From Gemmatimonadota bacterium (GTDB lineage Bacteria; Gemmatimonadota; Gemmatimonadetes; Gemmatimonadales; Gemmatimonadaceae), in the NCBI GenBank assembly GCA_003222065.1, contig QHUV01000001.1:1-16076 (forward strand): a stretch of DNA of 16,076 nucleotides. The letters run 5' to 3'. A program made the translations under genes and the position numbers. This document shows positions 2,917-11,811 of this stretch, one piece after another. Under the pieces are notes generated by a model. That model saw only the letters and a program-made list of their open reading frames with translations, was not told where the DNA came from and searched no databases. The stretch's first letter is position 1; each line of letters begins with the position of its first letter.

Positions 2917-3324
2917 ATGGCTCGCTTTCAACCGCCCGATCACACCAAGGGTGACGCGAACACCCTCGGCGGCTACATGGCCGTGCACGACCGCCCGGCG
3001 GCTTTCGAGGGCGGCGACGGCTTCTCGTACAGCGCCGAGATCGTGACCGACCACACTGGCGAGCCGGCGGCACCGTACGCCGCCTATCTGCTTTTCGTGC
3101 GCTGGGCACGCATCGGCGCGCAATCGCCGGAGGGTCACCTGGAGACGGACTACCTCGCGACGGCGACGACGGAGGCAAGCGCGCGCGCCGCTGTCGGTTC
3201 CTGGAAGCTTTCGGCTGTCAAGGCGGCGCTCGACGATTTGATCGCGGCTCAGCGTGGCGCGCCATCACGCCGCCGCTGGTGGGACGCGATGCGCGGCGAA
3301 GGCGGCGGCGAGAGCGCCGAGTGA
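2917..3324 (+). CDS. Uncharacterised conserved-looking protein, 135 aa
   Basis: I do not recognise this family. The protein is soluble, with no signal peptide and no membrane segment. The N-terminal 60 residues are Gly/Asp/Ala-rich (GGDGFSYSAEIV at 32-43). A compact central part contains a hydrophobic strand, AAYLLFVRWARIG (55-67). It ends with a helical stretch and a basic/aromatic tail (RRRWW at 118-122). Codon usage matches its neighbours, and the composition is unlike a shadow frame. It starts 35 bp after the proline dehydrogenase, and its stop overlaps the GTG start of rsgA (GTGA), so the two are probably translated together. That coupling is the only functional hint. The ATG at 2917 is chosen because upstream sequence in this frame overlaps the ProDH gene and looks non-coding. 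Confidence 0.75.
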   Translation: MARFQPPDHTKGDANTLGGYMAVHDRPAAFEGGDGFSYSAEIVTDHTGEPAAPYAAYLLFVRWARIGAQSPEGHLETDYLATATTEASARAAVGSWKLSAVKAALDDLIAAQRGAPSRRRWWDAMRGEGGGESAE

Positions 3325-4313
3325 CCGAGGCCGGCGTCGCGTCGGCGCACGACAGCGCGGCACGCACCCGGCGCGGCGTCGTGCTGAGCGGAACCGGCGG
3401 AAGCTGGCGCGTGCGTCTCGTCGACGACGCGTCCGTCGTCGACGCGACGCTGCGTGGTCGCTTGAAGCGTGACCCCTCAAGTGACGCGACGCGTCGCGAG
3501 GATCGATTGAAGCTGGCGGTCGGCGACGAAGTGATCGTCGAGCCGGATGCGCGCGGCGACCGGTGGGCCATCTGCGACATATTGCCGCGGCGCTCGCGTC
3601 TGGCGCGTCGAGCCCCCGGCGGCGCGTACGGCGAGCGCATCGTCGCCGCCAATGTCGATCAGGTGGTCGTCGTCTTCGCCGCCGCCCGCCCCGAGCCGCA
3701 CCCGCGAATGCTCGACCGATTTCTCGTCATCGCCGAAGCCAACGCGCTCGCCGCGCACATCATCGTCAACAAGATCGACCTCGTGACCGAGCGCGACGCG
3801 CAGGATCGCTTTGCGCCGTACGTGCGCGCCGGCTATCCGGTCCACTTCACCAGCACCAAGCGCGGCGACGGCCTGGCCGCGGTTCGAGCCATGCTCGACG
3901 GACGCGTGTCCGTCCTCACCGGTCCGTCAGGGGTCGGCAAGTCGTCGCTGCTCAACGCGCTCTTTCCCGGCCTTGGGCTGCGCGTCGGCGAGATCAGCGA
4001 ATCGGTCAACAAGGGGCGCCATACGACGGTCGGCGCCACGATGATCCCATTGCCTAACGAGGCGGCGGGGTTCGTCGTCGACACGCCGGGATTGCGGGAA
4101 GTCGGCATGTGGGCGCTCTCCGCGGAGCACCTCGACGCCTACTTCCCCGAGCTGCGACCCTTTGTCCCGCAATGCCGCTTCACAGATTGCACGCATACAG
4201 TGGAACCAGGGTGCGCGGTGAAAGACGCCGTCGCGCGCGGCGACGTCAGTGGCGAGCGCTTCGCGAGTTATTTGAAACTTCGCGATGAGTTGGAGGAGAC
4301 AGACTTTCAATAA
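3321..4313 (+). CDS. rsgA: Ribosome small subunit-dependent GTPase RsgA
   Basis: A 330-aa circularly permuted GTPase that acts late in 30S subunit maturation. An N-terminal OB-fold carries the family pattern GVVLSGTGGSWRVRL (19-33). The G motifs come in the permuted order typical of RsgA: G4 NKIDL (150-154), G5 TSTKRGDG (177-184), G1/P-loop GPSGVGKSS (201-209), the switch region around HTTVG (234-238), and G3 DTPG (254-257). The C-terminal zinc finger is complete (Cys285, Cys290, His292, Cys298), followed by the helical tail. The start is taken as GTG 3321 because it overlaps the upstream TGA (GTGA) and places the OB-fold at the usual distance; an ATG at 3279 would extend the protein with basic low-complexity sequence inside the preceding gene. 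All key residues are present. Confidence 0.96.
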   Translation: MTEAGVASAHDSAARTRRGVVLSGTGGSWRVRLVDDASVVDATLRGRLKRDPSSDATRREDRLKLAVGDEVIVEPDARGDRWAICDILPRRSRLARRAPGGAYGERIVAANVDQVVVVFAAARPEPHPRMLDRFLVIAEANALAAHIIVNKIDLVTERDAQDRFAPYVRAGYPVHFTSTKRGDGLAAVRAMLDGRVSVLTGPSGVGKSSLLNALFPGLGLRVGEISESVNKGRHTTVGATMIPLPNEAAGFVVDTPGLREVGMWALSAEHLDAYFPELRPFVPQCRFTDCTHTVEPGCAVKDAVARGDVSGERFASYLKLRDELEETDFQ

Positions 4314-4350: not shown

Positions 4351-4602
4351 CTACGCCTTCAGGTCCACGAATCGCCATTCTTCCCGATAGCGTGTGATGC
4401 CGAGCGTGCGGGCCATCAGCTCACCCACGACGGCGGCAACGTGGTCGCGGTGCTCCTCTTCATCCATGCCGTCCTGCGATGCCGTCGCCGACGCCACGAA
4501 GTCGATCACCGCGCCCGGTGTGTCGAGCTGCTCGGTGTCTTCGATGGAGACGCCGAACTCCTCCTCGACGCTCGCAAAAAACTCGTCGAGGGCCCAGCTC
4601 AT
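4351..4602 (-). CDS. Small acyl-carrier-protein-like protein with apparently permuted helix order
   Basis: An 83-aa acidic protein. Residues 2-36 resemble the second half of an acyl carrier protein: SWALDEFFASVEEEFG matches the helix II region after the phosphopantetheine Ser, and DTPGAVIDFV (27-36) matches the final helix. Residues 50-83 then resemble the first half: HVAAVVGELMARTLGI like helix I, and WRFVDLKA like the FVEDLGA that normally precedes the DSL motif. Joining the C-terminus to the N-terminus would recreate a normal ACP order, with Ser2 at the position of the modified Ser; the Asp and Leu of DSL are replaced by Met1 and Trp3. The start is constrained: an in-frame TGA lies five codons upstream of the ATG, and I see no ACP helix I in the other upstream frames. 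No fatty-acid or polyketide gene is adjacent. Function is unknown; carrier activity is not established. Confidence 0.7.
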   Translation of the reverse strand: MSWALDEFFASVEEEFGVSIEDTEQLDTPGAVIDFVASATASQDGMDEEEHRDHVAAVVGELMARTLGITRYREEWRFVDLKA

Positions 4603-4770
4603 GGCCAGTTCTCGTCAGGCAGTGCGCCCCTCGCATGAAGGGAAATCGGATCACGGACGGGCTGGAATATAACCGGCCTCTGCCTCGGCTCGGACGCAGC
4701 GCACGTCGTCGCTGGCCCAAGCGTGGTACGCGTTCGTCAAGCCGCCGTGAAGGAGTATATTGGGGTACAG

Positions 4771-5583
4771 ATGAGCACGAGACGGAAGCCCACCGATCCA
4801 GCCGCCTCGGCGGAGCCCGCGCGACCTAGAAAGGGACCTCGTTCGTCCACGCGCGTGAAAGGGCACTCCAGCATCGCCGACGCCGCGCCAATCGACGCGC
4901 CGCACGGGTCGCGCCCCGATCAAGTATACGCGCGACTGCGGGAGCTGATCGTCGGCGGGCTTCTCGCGCCTGGAAATCGGATCGTCGAAACCGAAATCGC
5001 CAGCCGGCTTGGCGTCAGTCGCACGCCCGTGCGCGAGGCGCTGCAGCGCCTACTGCAGGAAGGCTACGTCATCGACACGTTAGGTGCACAGCAATCGCGG
5101 CTCACCGTGGCGCCCCTCACGCGCGACGACGTGCGCGAGTTGCTGACGGTGGTGGGCGCGCTGGAGGGTATCGCCGCGCAACACGCTGCCTCGCAGCGGC
5201 CCGACGTGCGCGCCACACTCGCCAAGGACCTGCGTGACGCGAACGCGGAGTTCCATCGCGCTGGCCGCGCGTCGCCGATCGATCACGAGGCGCTTCACGA
5301 TGCGGACGAGCGCTTCCACCGTCGCATCGTCGAGTCAGGGGCGGGGCCGCGGTTGCTAGCGCTTTATCACGCGGTGAAGCCGCAGGCGGAGCGGTACATC
5401 CGCATGTACATCAGCATGCTCGGCGACATCCGCACCTCGGTCGCCGAGCACGAGATCATCATCGCCGCGATCGCGGAAGGCCGTCGCGATGACGCCGAGC
5501 TTGCCGTAGAGACAAACTGGCGGCATGCGGCCGATCGCCTGAGCCGCGTCATCGAGCTGGCTGGCGAGCGCGGTGCGTGGTGA
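4771..5583 (+). CDS. GntR-family transcriptional regulator, FCD (FadR) subfamily
   Basis: A 270-aa DNA-binding regulator. After a basic, Pro/Ser-rich disordered N-terminus (1-48) comes a winged helix-turn-helix (50-100) with the family signature LGVSRTPVREALQRLLQEGYV. The C-terminal all-helical FCD ligand-binding domain (about 115-260) keeps likely metal ligands Asp179 and His183 (DERFH), His227 (AEHE) and His252 (WRHA), so it probably binds a small organic acid through a metal. The ligand is unknown. The ATG at 4771 is preferred; GTG codons at 4723 and 4747 are in frame but would add non-homologous residues. AAGGAG at 4750-4755 is too far (15 nt) to be a good ribosome binding site, while TATATT at 4756-4761 could be a -10 box, giving a near-leaderless message. 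The TGA overlaps the GTG start of the polymerase gene (GTGA). Confidence 0.9.
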   Translation: MSTRRKPTDPAASAEPARPRKGPRSSTRVKGHSSIADAAPIDAPHGSRPDQVYARLRELIVGGLLAPGNRIVETEIASRLGVSRTPVREALQRLLQEGYVIDTLGAQQSRLTVAPLTRDDVRELLTVVGALEGIAAQHAASQRPDVRATLAKDLRDANAEFHRAGRASPIDHEALHDADERFHRRIVESGAGPRLLALYHAVKPQAERYIRMYISMLGDIRTSVAEHEIIIAAIAEGRRDDAELAVETNWRHAADRLSRVIELAGERGAW

Positions 5584-6803
5584 CGGTCGAGAAGCACCGT
5601 CGTATCTTGCTGGCTGACGCCGACGCCTTCTTCGTCGCCGTCGCGCGCCTCGTCGATCCGGATGGCGCCGGACGTGAGCCTTTACTCATCGTCGGCGGAA
5701 CGCGTGAGAGTCGCGGTGTCGTCTGCTCGGCGTCGTACGAGACGCGCAAGTACGGTGTCCGTTCGGCGATGCCGATCTCGCGCGCCCTGCGACTCTGCCC
5801 GAAGGCGGTATGCGTTCCCGTGCCGCGCAAGGCATGCTCGGCGAAGCACAAGGAGATTCGCGCCGTGCTCGAGCGGCACGCCCCCGCGGTAGAAGGCGCG
5901 AGCATCGACGAATGGTATCTCGATCTGGGCGGGACCGAGGCACTTTATCGTAATGAATCGCTCGCGGACACGGCGATGCGAATACGTCGTGACGTCATTC
6001 GCGAAGCCGGCCTGTCCGTCTCATTTGGCGGCGGCACCTCGAAGCTCATTGCGAAGCTCGCCGTCGAGCATGCCAAGCCGCGGCCCGGCAATCTCGCGAC
6101 CGGCGTGCACGTCGTACCGGCGGGAGGCGAAGACGGCTTCATGCACGGCATCAAGCTCGCCGAGATCCCGCTCATCGGACCGCGATTCCAGGAGCGACTC
6201 GGCCGCCTCGGCATGCGGACGGTGCCGGACGTCCTCCAGTACGACGAGGCGACACTCGCGCAGTGGTTAGGCAAGCGCGAGGCCGCTTGGCTCTGCGATC
6301 GCGTACGTGGCATCGATGGCGGTCACGTCGAGTCGCACCTCGACGCGAAGAGCATCAGCCGCGACGAGACCTTTCCGACCGACATCGACGACGACGACGA
6401 GCTCGGGCGGGAGCTCCTCGCCCTGCTCACGCGCGCCGCGGCCGACTTGCGTGGCGATGGCATGGCCGCGCGCACCGTTCGCGTGAAGATTCGCGATTGG
6501 GATTTTCGCACTCGTCAGGCAAGCCGCACCCTGGATCACCCGGTCATTGCCGACCGGATCTTGCTGACGGTGGCGCAGACGCTTCTCCGGCGGTTGCGCG
6601 CGGCGCGCCGCGTCCCGGCGCGCCTGCTCGGCGTTGCCCTGTCCTCCCTTGCCACCGACTCGACGGCTGATCAGCTCACGCTTTTCGAAGCGCTCGATAA
6701 CCGTCTCGTCGAGACCGATCGCGATCGCAGCGTTGCGCGGGTGGTCGATCGTGTGCGCGCCAGATTCGGCGACAAGGGGATTCTGCCCGGGGGGCTCGTT
6801 TGA
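5580..6803 (+). CDS. dinB: DNA polymerase IV (Y-family, DinB)
   Basis: A 407-aa error-prone translesion polymerase. Catalytic acidic residues are Asp13 (LADADAFF) and the Asp110-Glu111 pair in SIDEWYLDL. Phe18 occupies the steric-gate position that excludes ribonucleotides. The palm, the thumb helix-hairpin-helix around IPLIGPRFQERLGRLG (196-211) and the little finger domain are all present. The C-terminal part holds a beta-clamp-binding motif, QLTLF (365-369), followed by the usual short tail. Departures from the common Pol IV sequence are Trp after the catalytic DE pair and Ala in place of the Met between the first two Asp residues. The start is taken as GTG 5580, overlapping the regulator's TGA; GTG 5577 is an equal alternative adding one residue. 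Co-translation with a GntR regulator is unusual and suggests metabolic rather than purely SOS control, which is an inference. Confidence 0.93.
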   Translation: MTVEKHRRILLADADAFFVAVARLVDPDGAGREPLLIVGGTRESRGVVCSASYETRKYGVRSAMPISRALRLCPKAVCVPVPRKACSAKHKEIRAVLERHAPAVEGASIDEWYLDLGGTEALYRNESLADTAMRIRRDVIREAGLSVSFGGGTSKLIAKLAVEHAKPRPGNLATGVHVVPAGGEDGFMHGIKLAEIPLIGPRFQERLGRLGMRTVPDVLQYDEATLAQWLGKREAAWLCDRVRGIDGGHVESHLDAKSISRDETFPTDIDDDDELGRELLALLTRAAADLRGDGMAARTVRVKIRDWDFRTRQASRTLDHPVIADRILLTVAQTLLRRLRAARRVPARLLGVALSSLATDSTADQLTLFEALDNRLVETDRDRSVARVVDRVRARFGDKGILPGGLV

Positions 6804-8357: not shown

Positions 8358-8666
8358 CGAAGGTCCCGCGCGGTGAAGGGTGAAGCGATGAAACTCCGCG
8401 GACGAAAAGGAGAGCGACGCGGGCTTCGCCGTTCGACTCGCGAACTGGTGCGTCCGGCGCGTCACGCTCTGTTCAGAGGACGATCACGCGTACCGGATAA
8501 TTACAGTGAATTGCGTCGCGTTCGACGCTGTAATTACTCTATGTGAAACGACAATTCGTGACGCCTCTATAGTCGCGTGTCGTGAAATGCGACGGCGGTG
8601 ATCGTTCGCACATTTCGTCTGCCTCAATGCACTCGTGCGTTGAGTCACGGCGACTTCTCGCGCGGG
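8358..8666. other. Intergenic region upstream of the bactofilin gene
   Basis: No gene is supported here. It holds the promoter-proximal DNA of the bactofilin operon (minus strand) and an AT-rich inverted repeat at 8498-8536, listed separately. On the plus strand TATAGT at 8568-8573 could be a -10 box, without a good -35. The open frame from 8582 that runs into the hydratase gene has an Arg/Ser/Pro-rich composition and is not considered coding before 8807. Confidence 0.5.
8498..8536. promoter_or_regulatory. AT-rich inverted repeat with nested hairpin
   Basis: TAATTACA (8498-8505) and TGTAATTA (8529-8536) form a perfect 8-bp inverted pair (9 bp if the flanking G8506 and C8528 are counted). Arm centres are 31 bp apart, close to three helical turns. 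Between them sits a second stem, GCGTCG-CGTT-CGACGC (8513-8528), with a tetraloop. AT-rich arms stand out in this GC-rich DNA. It could be an operator for a dimeric or tetrameric regulator, or a structured leader. Confidence 0.5.
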
Positions 8667-8783
8667 TCATTTGTCCGCGCCACATTTCTTCGACACCGCG
8701 ACGCGCGATTTCGATGCCTCGTATTCGCCGACGAGGGCATTCATCTTCAGTTCCAGTATCGGCCGCTCCACCGTCACGAACAC
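8667..8783 (-). CDS. Candidate small protein, 38 aa
   Basis: A GTG-initiated frame on the minus strand, divergent from the hydratase gene and ending in TGA. The sequence begins MFVTVERPILELKMNALVGE and ends KKCGADK. Its composition (Val, Glu, Lys, Leu, Ala) is unlike the Arg/Ser/Pro-rich shadow frames around it, and about three quarters of third codon positions are G or C. A preceding in-frame TGA limits the N-terminus to this GTG. GGAG lies 13 nt upstream, too far to be a strong ribosome binding site. No family is recognised; it could also be a remnant of a longer gene. Confidence 0.35.
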   Translation of the reverse strand: MFVTVERPILELKMNALVGEYEASKSRVAVSKKCGADK

Positions 8784-8806
8784 GTTCTTTCGCGAACTCC
8801 GCCATC

Positions 8807-9598
8807 ATGTCATACGACCATCTATTGATTGTCACCTCGAGCACCGGCGTACGCACGATCACGCTGCACAGACCCGAGCGGCTGAACGCCGTGAATCCAC
8901 GTCTCGCCGAGGAGTTGCCGCGCGCGATCGACGACGCGGCACGGGATGACGCGGTGCGCGTCGTCGTGATTACCGGCGCGGGACGCGGCTTCTGTTCGGG
9001 GCTCGATTTGTCCGAGCCGCCGCGGTTGCCGGAAGGCGACCTCCGCGCGCGTCTCGATCCATTGGCGTGGGTCGGCCGATGGGTGCTCACCGCGGTGCAG
9101 TGTGAGAAACCTCTCATCGCCGCGATCAATGGGTCCGCCGCCGGTGCTGGGTTCGGCCTTGCCCTGGCGTGCGACGTTCGGCTTCTCGCGCGCGGCGCGC
9201 GTGTGACTGCCGGTTACGTTCGGCGCGGCCTCAGTCCGGACGCCGGCGTGAGCTACATGCTCCCGCGATTGGTCGGTCTCTCACGAGCGAGCGAGATCTT
9301 GCTTACGGGCCGCGACGTCGACGCCGACGAGGCACAACGCATTGGACTGGTCGCCGCGGTCTTCGATGACGCGACGTTCGCCGCCGCCGCGCTCGCGTAC
9401 GCGGAGCGCCTGGCGAGCGGACCACCCATCGCCTTCGCCCTCACGAAGCGCCTTCTCGCCTCGACGTTCGCCGTCACGCTCGATGAGCATCTCGCTCGCG
9501 AGCTGGTCGCGATCAAAACGTGCTTTGCATCACAGGACGTCGCCGAGGCGTTGCGCGCGTTCGGTGAGAAGCGGGCTCCGGTGTTTCGCGGAAGGTGA
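8807..9598 (+). CDS. Enoyl-CoA hydratase/isomerase family protein (PaaG-like)
   Basis: A 263-aa crotonase-fold enzyme acting on acyl-CoA thioesters. The oxyanion-hole segments are GAGRGFCSGLDL (57-68) and AAINGSAAGAGFGLALACD (105-123). The segment GLSPDAGVSYMLPRLVG (141-157) is typical of the PaaG-like subgroup. The first catalytic Glu of true hydratases aligns with Tyr137, while the second is kept (Glu163 in ASEILLTG). Asp145 in SPDAG may supply the acid/base function, as proposed for PaaG-type isomerases. It is therefore more likely a double-bond or ring isomerase than a classical beta-oxidation hydratase. No other fatty-acid or phenylacetate gene is adjacent. The ATG at 8807 starts right before the core fold; sequence upstream in frame is not coding-like. 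There is no clear ribosome binding site. Confidence 0.9.
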   Translation: MSYDHLLIVTSSTGVRTITLHRPERLNAVNPRLAEELPRAIDDAARDDAVRVVVITGAGRGFCSGLDLSEPPRLPEGDLRARLDPLAWVGRWVLTAVQCEKPLIAAINGSAAGAGFGLALACDVRLLARGARVTAGYVRRGLSPDAGVSYMLPRLVGLSRASEILLTGRDVDADEAQRIGLVAAVFDDATFAAAALAYAERLASGPPIAFALTKRLLASTFAVTLDEHLARELVAIKTCFASQDVAEALRAFGEKRAPVFRGR

Positions 9599-10170: not shown

Positions 10171-10204
10171 CGGCGCGGCGATCGTTACTTCGATCGTCGC
10201 GCCG
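10171..10204. terminator. Strong hairpin, probable bidirectional terminator
   Basis: CGGCGCGGCGATCG (10171-10184) pairs with CGATCGTCGCGCCG (10191-10204): a 14-bp stem with one G-T pair and a 6-nt TTACTT loop. It lies just past the PepSY gene and contains the end of the convergent phosphoesterase gene, whose stop codon (10187-10185) sits in the loop. There is no T-tract, so termination efficiency is uncertain. Confidence 0.55.
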
Positions 10205-10877
10205 CGGCCGTTTTGCGGGGAGCGCCGCGCTGCGTCGCCGCCGTCGCCCGTCTCTTCCCGCCGGCGATGTCATCCATCGTGCGGCCGGTCGTGACCGATG
10301 TCGTCGCGTCGGCAACGATGTCCCTGGTATCGGTCGCGTACTCGTCGCGATGCTTGATGAGGAGCCACTGCGGCCGGCCAGGGCGTTTCATCCGCACGAG
10401 CACCCAGCCTCCCTTCAGCCGGTCGCCGTGCAGCACGAACTTGAGATCACCGCGCGCGTACCCGTCGCGTAGTGCATCCACTCCGTCACCGCTCTCGGGT
10501 TCGTACGTGCCACGATCCCACAGCATCACAGTTCCGCCACCGTACTCGCCCCGCGGGATCGTGCCTTCGAAGGTGTTGTACTCGATTGGATGGTCCTCCA
10601 CTTCCATCGCGAGCCGGCGGATCGACGGGTCATAACTCGGTCCCTTCGGCACGGCCCAGCTCTTCATGACACCATCCAACTCGAGTCGAAAGTCGAAATG
10701 CAACTGGCTAGCGGCGTGCTTTTGCACGACAAAGTGTAGCGTCGGCGCGCGCTTCTTCGGCGCGCTGCGCCCGGCCGCGGTCGCTCCGCCTGACGGCTCC
10801 TGTGTCTTTGTGAAGTCACGCTTGCGCCGATATTCAGCGAGTTTGGTCGGGGCACCGCTCTTTTTTTTCGTCGCCAT
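10185..10877 (-). CDS. Stand-alone LigD-type 3'-phosphoesterase domain protein
   Basis: A 230-aa protein matching the N-terminal phosphoesterase (PE) module of LigD, which trims 3'-phosphates and 3'-ribonucleotides at breaks during bacterial NHEJ. Active-site positions known from Pseudomonas LigD are conserved: His54, His60, Asp62 and Arg64 in KHAASQLHFDFRLELDG, and His96 and Tyr100 in VEDHPIEYNTFEG. The core covers about 45-180. N- and C-terminal tails are Lys/Arg-rich and probably disordered. No polymerase or ATP-dependent ligase domain is fused or adjacent, so these must be encoded elsewhere if present. It lies 49 bp downstream of ku on the same strand, presumably one operon. GAGGT lies nine bases before the ATG. 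Codons 4-6 are a run of eight A residues, a possible slippage site. Confidence 0.92.
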   Translation of the reverse strand: MATKKKSGAPTKLAEYRRKRDFTKTQEPSGGATAAGRSAPKKRAPTLHFVVQKHAASQLHFDFRLELDGVMKSWAVPKGPSYDPSIRRLAMEVEDHPIEYNTFEGTIPRGEYGGGTVMLWDRGTYEPESGDGVDALRDGYARGDLKFVLHGDRLKGGWVLVRMKRPGRPQWLLIKHRDEYATDTRDIVADATTSVTTGRTMDDIAGGKRRATAATQRGAPRKTAAARRSK

Positions 10878-10926
10878 CGTCGCACTACCTCGTTCAATGA
10901 GATCTGCCCATCGAACGAAGCGTCTT

Positions 10927-11811
10927 TCATGCCGTGCGGCGTTTGCGCGTCCGAGTGCCGCGCTCGCTGGATGGACGAGCCTCGCTCTCGCGAGCGGCGC
11001 GCGTGCCGCGAGAGGACCGTACCGGCTTCCCGCGGCGCTGCGCGCTGGACTGCTCGAGGCTCGCCTGCAATCGCGACATGAGATCGAGCACCTTCGTGCT
11101 TTCCTCCCGCTCGGGCTCGGCGATCTCGATCTTTTGGCCTTTCATTTTCGCGCCAATGATCTTCATCAGGTTCGCGCGATAGTCGTCCGTGTACTTCTCC
11201 GGCTCGAATGGCTCCGCGAGGTTCGCCACGAGCTGCGTCGCCATCTTCAGTTCCTGCGGCCGAACGATCCCCGCTGACGGAAAACTGAGCTCCGTTGCAT
11301 CGACGAGCTCGTTCGCGAAGCGCATCGTCTCGAGCATCATCGCCTCGCCCACGGTCTTGATGGCCGCCAGATGCTGCTTCTGGTGCATCGTGAGTTTGCC
11401 GACACCGACGGACTCGGTGGTCCGCATCGCTTCGCGCAACAGCGCGTAGCCCTTCTCGCCACCCTTGGCGGGGACAACATAGTACGGCGTTTCGAAGAAG
11501 CGCGGATCGATCTCGTTCGCGCGCACGAAATCGAGAATGTCGATCGTCTTCGACGACGCGAGCGCGGCGGCGCGAAAATCCTCATCCGCGAGGATGACGT
11601 ATTTCCCCTTCGCGTACTCGTAGCCCTTCACGATCTCTTTCCACGGCACGGGCTCGCCGTCGCGCTCGCACACGCGCTCGTAGCGCACGGGCGCGAGATC
11701 CTCGGCATGGAGCATCCGAAAGGAGATGTGATCGCTTTGCACGGCCCCGCGAAGCTCAACCGGAATACTCACGAGTCCGAACGAGATCGTTCCCTTCCAT
11801 GCGGCGCCCAT
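10927..11811 (-). CDS. ku: Ku protein, non-homologous end joining
   Basis: A 294-aa bacterial Ku homodimer subunit, which rings DNA ends and recruits LigD. The family N-terminus AAWKGTISFGLVSIPVEL (3-20) is intact. The core includes VKGYEYAKGKYVIL (61-74), FETPYYVVP (106-114), and LVDATELSFP (169-178) near the dimer bridge. The beta-barrel/bridge region ends around 230; residues 255-294 are a Lys/Arg/Ser-rich basic tail of the kind that aids DNA binding and threading in other bacterial Ku proteins. The Shine-Dalgarno is unusually good (listed separately). The phosphoesterase gene follows after 49 bp. Confidence 0.96.
   Translation of the reverse strand: MGAAWKGTISFGLVSIPVELRGAVQSDHISFRMLHAEDLAPVRYERVCERDGEPVPWKEIVKGYEYAKGKYVILADEDFRAAALASSKTIDILDFVRANEIDPRFFETPYYVVPAKGGEKGYALLREAMRTTESVGVGKLTMHQKQHLAAIKTVGEAMMLETMRFANELVDATELSFPSAGIVRPQELKMATQLVANLAEPFEPEKYTDDYRANLMKIIGAKMKGQKIEIAEPEREESTKVLDLMSRLQASLEQSSAQRRGKPVRSSRGTRAARESEARPSSERGTRTRKRRTA

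Follow-up and report, generated by a model that had tools for sequence, protein, structure and literature searches.

The stretch of DNA analyzed here (16,076 nucleotides, referred to as the window) encodes a small protein that is very probably a permuted homologue of the acyl carrier protein (ACP). We interpret it as a natural circular permutant of ACP that acts mainly as a protein-binding adaptor and not as an acyl carrier, and we give this explanation as a whole a probability of about 0.6. The protein is encoded by an open reading frame of 83 amino acids on the minus strand (4602..4351), with an in-frame TGA five codons upstream; a preliminary description of the window had named the gene without its strand. 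The observation of that description, an ACP-like protein with a rotated helix order, was confirmed, and its interpretation as a permuted ACP is supported. The gene and its parts are as follows:

4351..4602, minus strand: permuted ACP-like gene, 83 amino acids plus TGA stop (open reading frame; family of 342 clusters; dN well below dS)
4597..4599, minus strand: Ser2 codon (HMM-aligned over the junction in the relatives; no exception among 238 proteins)
4486..4599, minus strand: residues 2-39, equivalent of ACP helices II, III, and IV (NCBIfam ACP models on residues 6-39; predicted helices 3-16, 23-25 (short), and 29-39)
4462..4485, minus strand: residues 40-47, new linker from helix IV to helix I (non-helical in the model; rotation-scan peak at cuts after ~44-48 residues)
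4354..4461, minus strand: residues 48-83, corresponding to ACP helix I and loop I up to FVEDL (helices predicted at 48-67 and 78-81; alignment to ACP 6-33 in relatives)

Residues 48-83 contain a conserved, family-specific loop, TRYxExxRF. The FVEDL motif reads FVDL in the window copy, with one residue missing, and the usual C-terminal VR is absent.

A search of 5.8 billion proteins yielded 342 relatives at E 1e-3 or better, 120 of which were listed. With a profile built from more divergent members, 695 matches were obtained, which overlap the 342; again 120 were listed, and rows beyond these may include ordinary ACPs. Conservation counts and rotation scores refer to a set of 238 family proteins, and the helix order was determined on a later set of 254. 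The entry P0001, a plus-strand translation of the given coordinates, was left out.

In its native order, the window copy was matched by NCBIfam ACP models over residues 6-39 (best E 0.001). As claimed, the first half of the protein corresponds to the part of ACP that begins at the modified serine and includes helix IV. In native sequences generally, the match was confined to residues up to 6-42 and fell on the second half of the model. We scored the family in native and rotated order against a profile of 37 ordinary ACPs of the phylum, from which L031, the weaker of two matches in the own genome, was excluded. Rotation raised the score in 237 of the 238 members, with the mean increasing from 12.6 to 24.1 bits, and the match spanned the whole ACP model in 205 of 238 rotated versus 0 of 238 native sequences. 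The score likewise increased in 125 rows of a 126-row set composed of 120 listed proteins and six from genomes, in which L013 duplicates P0120. When 100 of these members were rotated in four-residue steps, the score peaked for cuts after 44-48 residues, that is, at the linker. For nine of the ten rows tested, at most 1 of 1000 shuffled second halves matched the rotated score. As decoys, we used peptide windows from 601 open frames of at least 200 codons at 53 loci, in six frames, not all of them real proteins, and with ACP loci excluded; placed as second half, they matched the rotated score in 0, 0, 1, 0, and 0 of 5000 cases for five members. A profile-versus-profile comparison of the same 238 rows with HHalign scored 34.9 in native versus 54.3 in rotated order over 69 columns (35% identity), and 60 column-shuffles of the second half gave a mean of 35.0 and a maximum of 41.4.

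The window copy itself behaved less clearly. Its gain upon rotation was small (12.4 to 16.5 bits), and its rotated score was matched by shuffled second halves in 57 of 1000 cases and by decoy peptide windows in 131 of 5000. The proof of the permutation therefore comes from the family and not from the window copy alone: the window copy by itself is weak evidence and the family is strong evidence.

The comparison with PDB chains and with TIGR00517 was carried out with the same ten members in native and rotated order. On the solved ACP 2ehs, the native sequences gave two swapped stretches (whole-sequence E 2.2e-6), with query residues 61-84 on 6-31 (6.8 bits) and residues 6-41 on 39-74 (22.7 bits); the helix-I stretch is weak when taken alone (6.5-6.8 bits). 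The rotated sequences aligned to 2ehs in a single stretch, 16-82 on 6-74, with 42.7 bits and an E of 4.9e-10. At E 0.1 or better, 64 PDB chains were found in native versus 102 in rotated order, and E. coli AcpP (1acp) was matched over residues 41-73 (E 0.023) in native and over 7-73 (E 1e-5) in rotated order. On the second-best chain, 2n50, the helix-I stretch added nothing in native order (-0.6 bits). All ten members matched TIGR00517 in both orders, with the best E improving from 4.4e-6 to 3.4e-9; the match of P0122 grew upon rotation from 22.2 bits over positions 41-76 to 33.1 bits over positions 4-76 of 77. The members listed scored 21.7-22.2 bits in native and 31.7-33.1 bits in rotated order, and the window copy 14.5 and 17.4 bits, all below the curated cut-off of 70.45. 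The phosphopantetheine attachment domain PF00550 matched none of 11 native members and three of ten rotated ones (best E 0.011), and a Pfam search of the window copy gave no match.

Both segments thus match ACP in swapped positions on 2ehs, and rotation produces one full-length match beyond the controls for the family, which is unclear for the window copy alone. The permuted helix order asserted in the preliminary description is therefore upheld. Its assignment of the second half to helix I through FVEDL also stood, except that the HMM alignment begins at residues 57-62 and not at residue 50. The family has the helix order II-III-IV-I, whereas in TIGR00517 the order is I-II-III-IV and the serine follows helix I. 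By the definitions tested, these proteins are permuted relatives of the ACP family and not members of it.

The junction between the old chain segments was inspected in the relatives, where its alignment is ungapped (FVEDL-RVR/S-WALDEF versus FIEDL-GAD/S-LDIVEL, with the slash marking the chain ends). The final Arg falls on D35 and Ser2 on S36, and the whole ACP alignment contains one two-residue gap in loop I and none at the junction. Thus, Ser2 occupies the position of the prosthetic serine, and the chain ends replace D35. The counterpart of Ser2 is the phosphopantetheine serine, Ser36 in AcpP numbering. The proposed placement of Ser2 on the modified serine is borne out by this alignment and by the invariance of the residue (238 of 238); the proposed gapless closure of the circle holds for the relatives aligned, while the window copy needs gaps at the junction. 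The C-terminus reads DL[HRK]VR in 164 of 238 relatives. The D-S-L attachment motif is broken in the family, as Ser2 is preceded by the start residue, D35 being absent, and followed by Trp3 in place of L37 (237 of 238). On the ACP recognition helix, E7, E13, and E15 are 97-100% conserved, and the net charge averages -14 in the family versus -13.5 in the collected ordinary ACPs.

AlphaFold2 modeled the window copy from a 31-row alignment with a pLDDT of 92.3 and a pTM of 0.84, placing helices at residues 3-16, 29-39, 48-67, and 78-81. A sister-genus member modeled from 11 rows reached a pLDDT of 81.1 and a pTM of 0.72, with helices at 3-16, 31-41, 50-69, and 80-84. In both models, the predicted helices fit ACP helices II, IV, and I plus a short turn in loop I, in rotated order, which agrees with the helix order expected in the preliminary description. 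Helix I in these models is longer than that of AcpP. Helices I and IV are antiparallel in ACP, so that a short linker can join them.

The residue preceding Ser2 is Met in 225, Val in 12, and Leu in one of the 238 proteins, consistent with initiation at ATG, GTG, and TTG. Thirty-two entries are annotated as longer, and in these, although any residue could stand before Ser2, it is Met in 29, Val in two, and Leu in one. In the three forward frames of nine loci, no ACP piece was found within 240 bases upstream or downstream; the best scores were -3.5 bits upstream and -2.2 bits downstream, against mean shuffled maxima of -2.0 and -1.5. Because the upstream DNA is conserved and holds no ACP piece, we regard the longer annotated forms as wrong starts. 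For eight of 36 codon pairs, chosen beforehand, dN was 0.06-0.14 versus a dS of 0.69-1.29. The family is thus a conserved gene that starts at the new N-terminus with Met1-Ser2, has a rotated helix order, and is under purifying selection. A frameshift, a wrong start, or an upstream remnant of helix I, against which the preliminary description had already argued, was ruled out by the homologues and the scan of the flanking frames.

Conserved stretches precede the gene in both genera. In the six sister-genus loci (L013 and L024-L028), GTTGC and ACATT are conserved upstream, and the spacing between their first letters is exactly 25 bases throughout. ACATT, which is part of GACATT in four of the six, begins 41-46 bases ahead of the start codon, except in L013 (80 bases). 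This pair looks like a promoter or operator and not like coding DNA, since it lies in different frames in the extended proteins (by eye). The three genomes of the window's genus (window 4603-4720, L021, and L022) share another stretch, TATATTC ... CGTCCGTGA ... ACTGCCTGACGAG.

Among the matches listed, all organisms named beyond "bacterium" are Gemmatimonadaceae or Gemmatimonas MAGs. The permuted gene was found in nine of 179 Gemmatimonadaceae genomes, many of which are incomplete, namely in 3/3 genomes of the window's genus and 6/6 of the sister genus; it was found in none of the other 170 Gemmatimonadaceae genomes searched, many of them likewise incomplete. A tenth match (G184) was a chance hit to what by eye is a piece of a CoA-transferase-like frame. 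In a phylum sample, eight of 395 genomes carried the permuted gene, and each of seven further weak matches had an ordinary ACP gene at about the match position. An ordinary AcpP is also encoded in the own genome (101 bits, above the cut-off) and was found in 37 of 39 family genomes searched, the own genome included. All 254 family proteins have the rotated order (253 by motif, P0251 by eye). Among the best 120 of 684 proteins matching the rotated profile, which scores ordinary ACPs up to 43 bits and the own-genome AcpP at 31.7, no close relative with the ordinary order was found. A search of 99 genomes with this profile passed over such ordinary ACPs and so does not count as a negative. The collected homologues thus gave no ordinary N-terminus that would mark the window copy as rearranged. 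The source annotations of P0046, P0055, P0074, P0106, and P0126 disagree among molybdopterin factor, sigma factor, phytoene/squalene synthetase, and acyl carrier protein, a sign that the family is not recognized by standard pipelines.

The genes around the permuted gene in the window are:

3279..4313, plus strand: RsgA-type GTPase, convergent neighbour (PF03193; synteny)
4723..5583, plus strand: GntR/FCD-type transcription regulator, divergent from the permuted gene (PF00392, PF07729; likely start near 4771, by eye)
5577..6803, plus strand: Y-family DNA polymerase, DinB/Pol IV type (PF00817, PF11799)
8582-9598: enoyl-CoA hydratase/isomerase, a few kb from the permuted gene (PF00378)
10185-11811, minus strand: LigD-type phosphoesterase and Ku protein lookalikes, an adjacent end-joining pair (by eye)

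The order in the window is RsgA, the permuted gene pointing back, GntR/FCD, and DinB. The sister-genus contigs, as far as they extend, show RsgA, GntR pointing back, the permuted gene, and DinB. Because the permuted gene and GntR are divergent in all nine genomes, the two seem to have been inverted as a block between the genera, relative to RsgA and DinB. In L021 (8375-14694), ~6.3 kb separate the permuted gene from the divergent GntR gene. In five of the six sister-genus genomes, the stop of the permuted gene and the inferred start of dinB share 4 nt, and in the sixth 1 nt; in the window, dinB overlaps GntR instead, and the permuted gene has the opposite orientation. In 16 of 30 loci, from four other genera, GntR neighbours RsgA and no permuted ACP is found. 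The context therefore hints at a link to dinB or GntR without proving it, and a tight functional link to GntR is weakened. Ten loci without the permuted gene carry other genes on the divergent side (open frames, by eye). L070 and L073 have both GntR and DinB but lack the permuted gene; in L073 (2211-3556), from a genus that does not carry it, two other genes lie between GntR and DinB, one of which is by eye a twin-arginine-like secreted protein. Hydratase relatives occur near the permuted gene in L022 and L027, next to DinB in the latter, and beside GntR without the permuted gene in L072, L078, and L083.

Two alternatives concern the identity of the protein. It could be a chimera of an ACP first half and an unrelated helix, for example from phytoene/squalene synthase, with a coincidental FVEDL ending. 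The isolated second half indeed gave no ACP match in NCBIfam or PDB up to E 10 and matched the CrtB model in five of ten members (best E 0.0044) and SQS_PSY in three of ten (best E 0.0048). This similarity is limited to 17-23 residues, a short helix, and leaves loop I and FVEDL unexplained. Therefore, we read it as a probable shared motif of a helix rich in small residues, although it is the main soft spot of the case for permutation. As the ACP alignment runs through loop I to FVEDL without a gap at the junction, and windows from other open frames do not reproduce the rotation gain, a chimera appears quite improbable. An ordinary ACP with a wrong start, a frameshift, or a misassembly would account for the N-terminal extension annotated in 32 of 238 database entries, but recurrence of the same order in nine genomes and 254 listed protein clusters, a start residue that varies among Met, Val, and Leu only, and flanking DNA free of ACP pieces leave such an artefact next to no likelihood.

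Other alternatives concern the role of the protein. If it were a working permuted carrier, a phosphopantetheinyl transferase would load Ser2 at the N-terminus, and the acyl group would serve an unspecified pathway. Consistent with this are the invariant Ser2 exactly on the prosthetic serine, the conserved recognition-helix glutamates, a net charge like that of ordinary ACPs, and the enoyl-CoA hydratase gene a few kb away in the window, L022, and L027. The attachment motif, however, lacks D35 and has Trp for L37. A hydratase is near in only three of nine loci (neighbours were compared with the window's own genes only) and also accompanies GntR where the permuted gene is absent. Moreover, 25 columns of alignment A1 are invariant, so an invariant serine alone says little for a carrier, and we consider this role unlikely, if deserving of attention. 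Alternatively, the protein may be a partner or regulator of DinB or GntR, for instance an acidic DNA mimic, for whose present role the ACP ancestry would be irrelevant. The overlap with dinB in six of six sister-genus genomes and the divergent arrangement with GntR in nine of nine point in this direction; the opposite orientation in the window, where dinB overlaps GntR, the loci L070 and L073, which have both genes without the permuted one, and an acidity no higher than that of ordinary ACPs make it improbable, yet worth bearing in mind. We give a role as protein-binding adaptor and not as carrier an even chance, because the attachment motif is broken, the acidic recognition helix is kept, the new loop is invariant, and the cofactor-free ACP of Plasmodium provides a precedent. 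A pure adaptor, however, would not require the invariant Ser2.

We propose that the chain of an ancestral ACP was opened immediately ahead of the prosthetic-group serine and that a linker of ~8 residues came to connect the former ends, helix IV and helix I. This may have happened by tandem duplication and re-cutting with a new start and stop, the usual route to natural circular permutants. The product is a conserved extra gene in a genome that also has its normal AcpP gene, and the permutant would fold into the same helix bundle. Met1 is expected to be removed, since methionine aminopeptidase acts on Met before Ser; Ser2 would then be the N-terminus, lying beside the C-terminal tail. As an acidic adaptor, the protein would reuse the ACP recognition helix (E7, E13-E15) together with its own TRYxExxRF loop and bind a partner protein in the way known from an ACP that lacks phosphopantetheine.

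The family resembles bacterial type II ACP (AcpP; TIGR00517; 2ehs) in all four helix regions by sequence, in the EEEF recognition helix and FVEDL, in the position of the prosthetic serine, and in length and net charge. It differs from AcpP in its rotated order, its new ends at the serine, the broken D-S-L motif, the conserved TRYxExxRF loop, and scores far under the curated cut-off. As in natural circular permutants generally, two homologous segments are swapped, and rotation restores the full match. The adaptor function without cofactor that we propose has a parallel in the mitochondrial ACP of Plasmodium, which is divergent and free of phosphopantetheine and acts as a protein adaptor; unlike the family, it has a known partner complex, Isd11-Nfs1, and no permutation is mentioned in the abstract of that report (PMC8547962). 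Among the open-access papers listed in our searches, with subscription papers and preprints outside the scope, we found no natural permuted ACP or carrier protein.

Some soil bacteria thus appear to keep, beside a normal ACP, a small ACP relative whose chain is opened at the cofactor serine and whose old ends are joined. ACP belongs to the small proteins that have been studied most, and the order of its helices is assumed to be fixed. Standard domain searches miss such genes, as Pfam is blank for the window copy and NCBIfam covers half of it. A conserved natural permutant cut exactly at the cofactor site would test how far transferases and partner enzymes need chain continuity in order to recognize ACP. 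We consider it doubtful that the protein is a functional carrier beginning at the cofactor residue itself, with 4'-phosphopantetheine on the N-terminal Ser after removal of Met and a regular AcpP at its side; if true, such an N-terminal-serine carrier would gate its acyl arm differently and would have evolved beside the normal AcpP.
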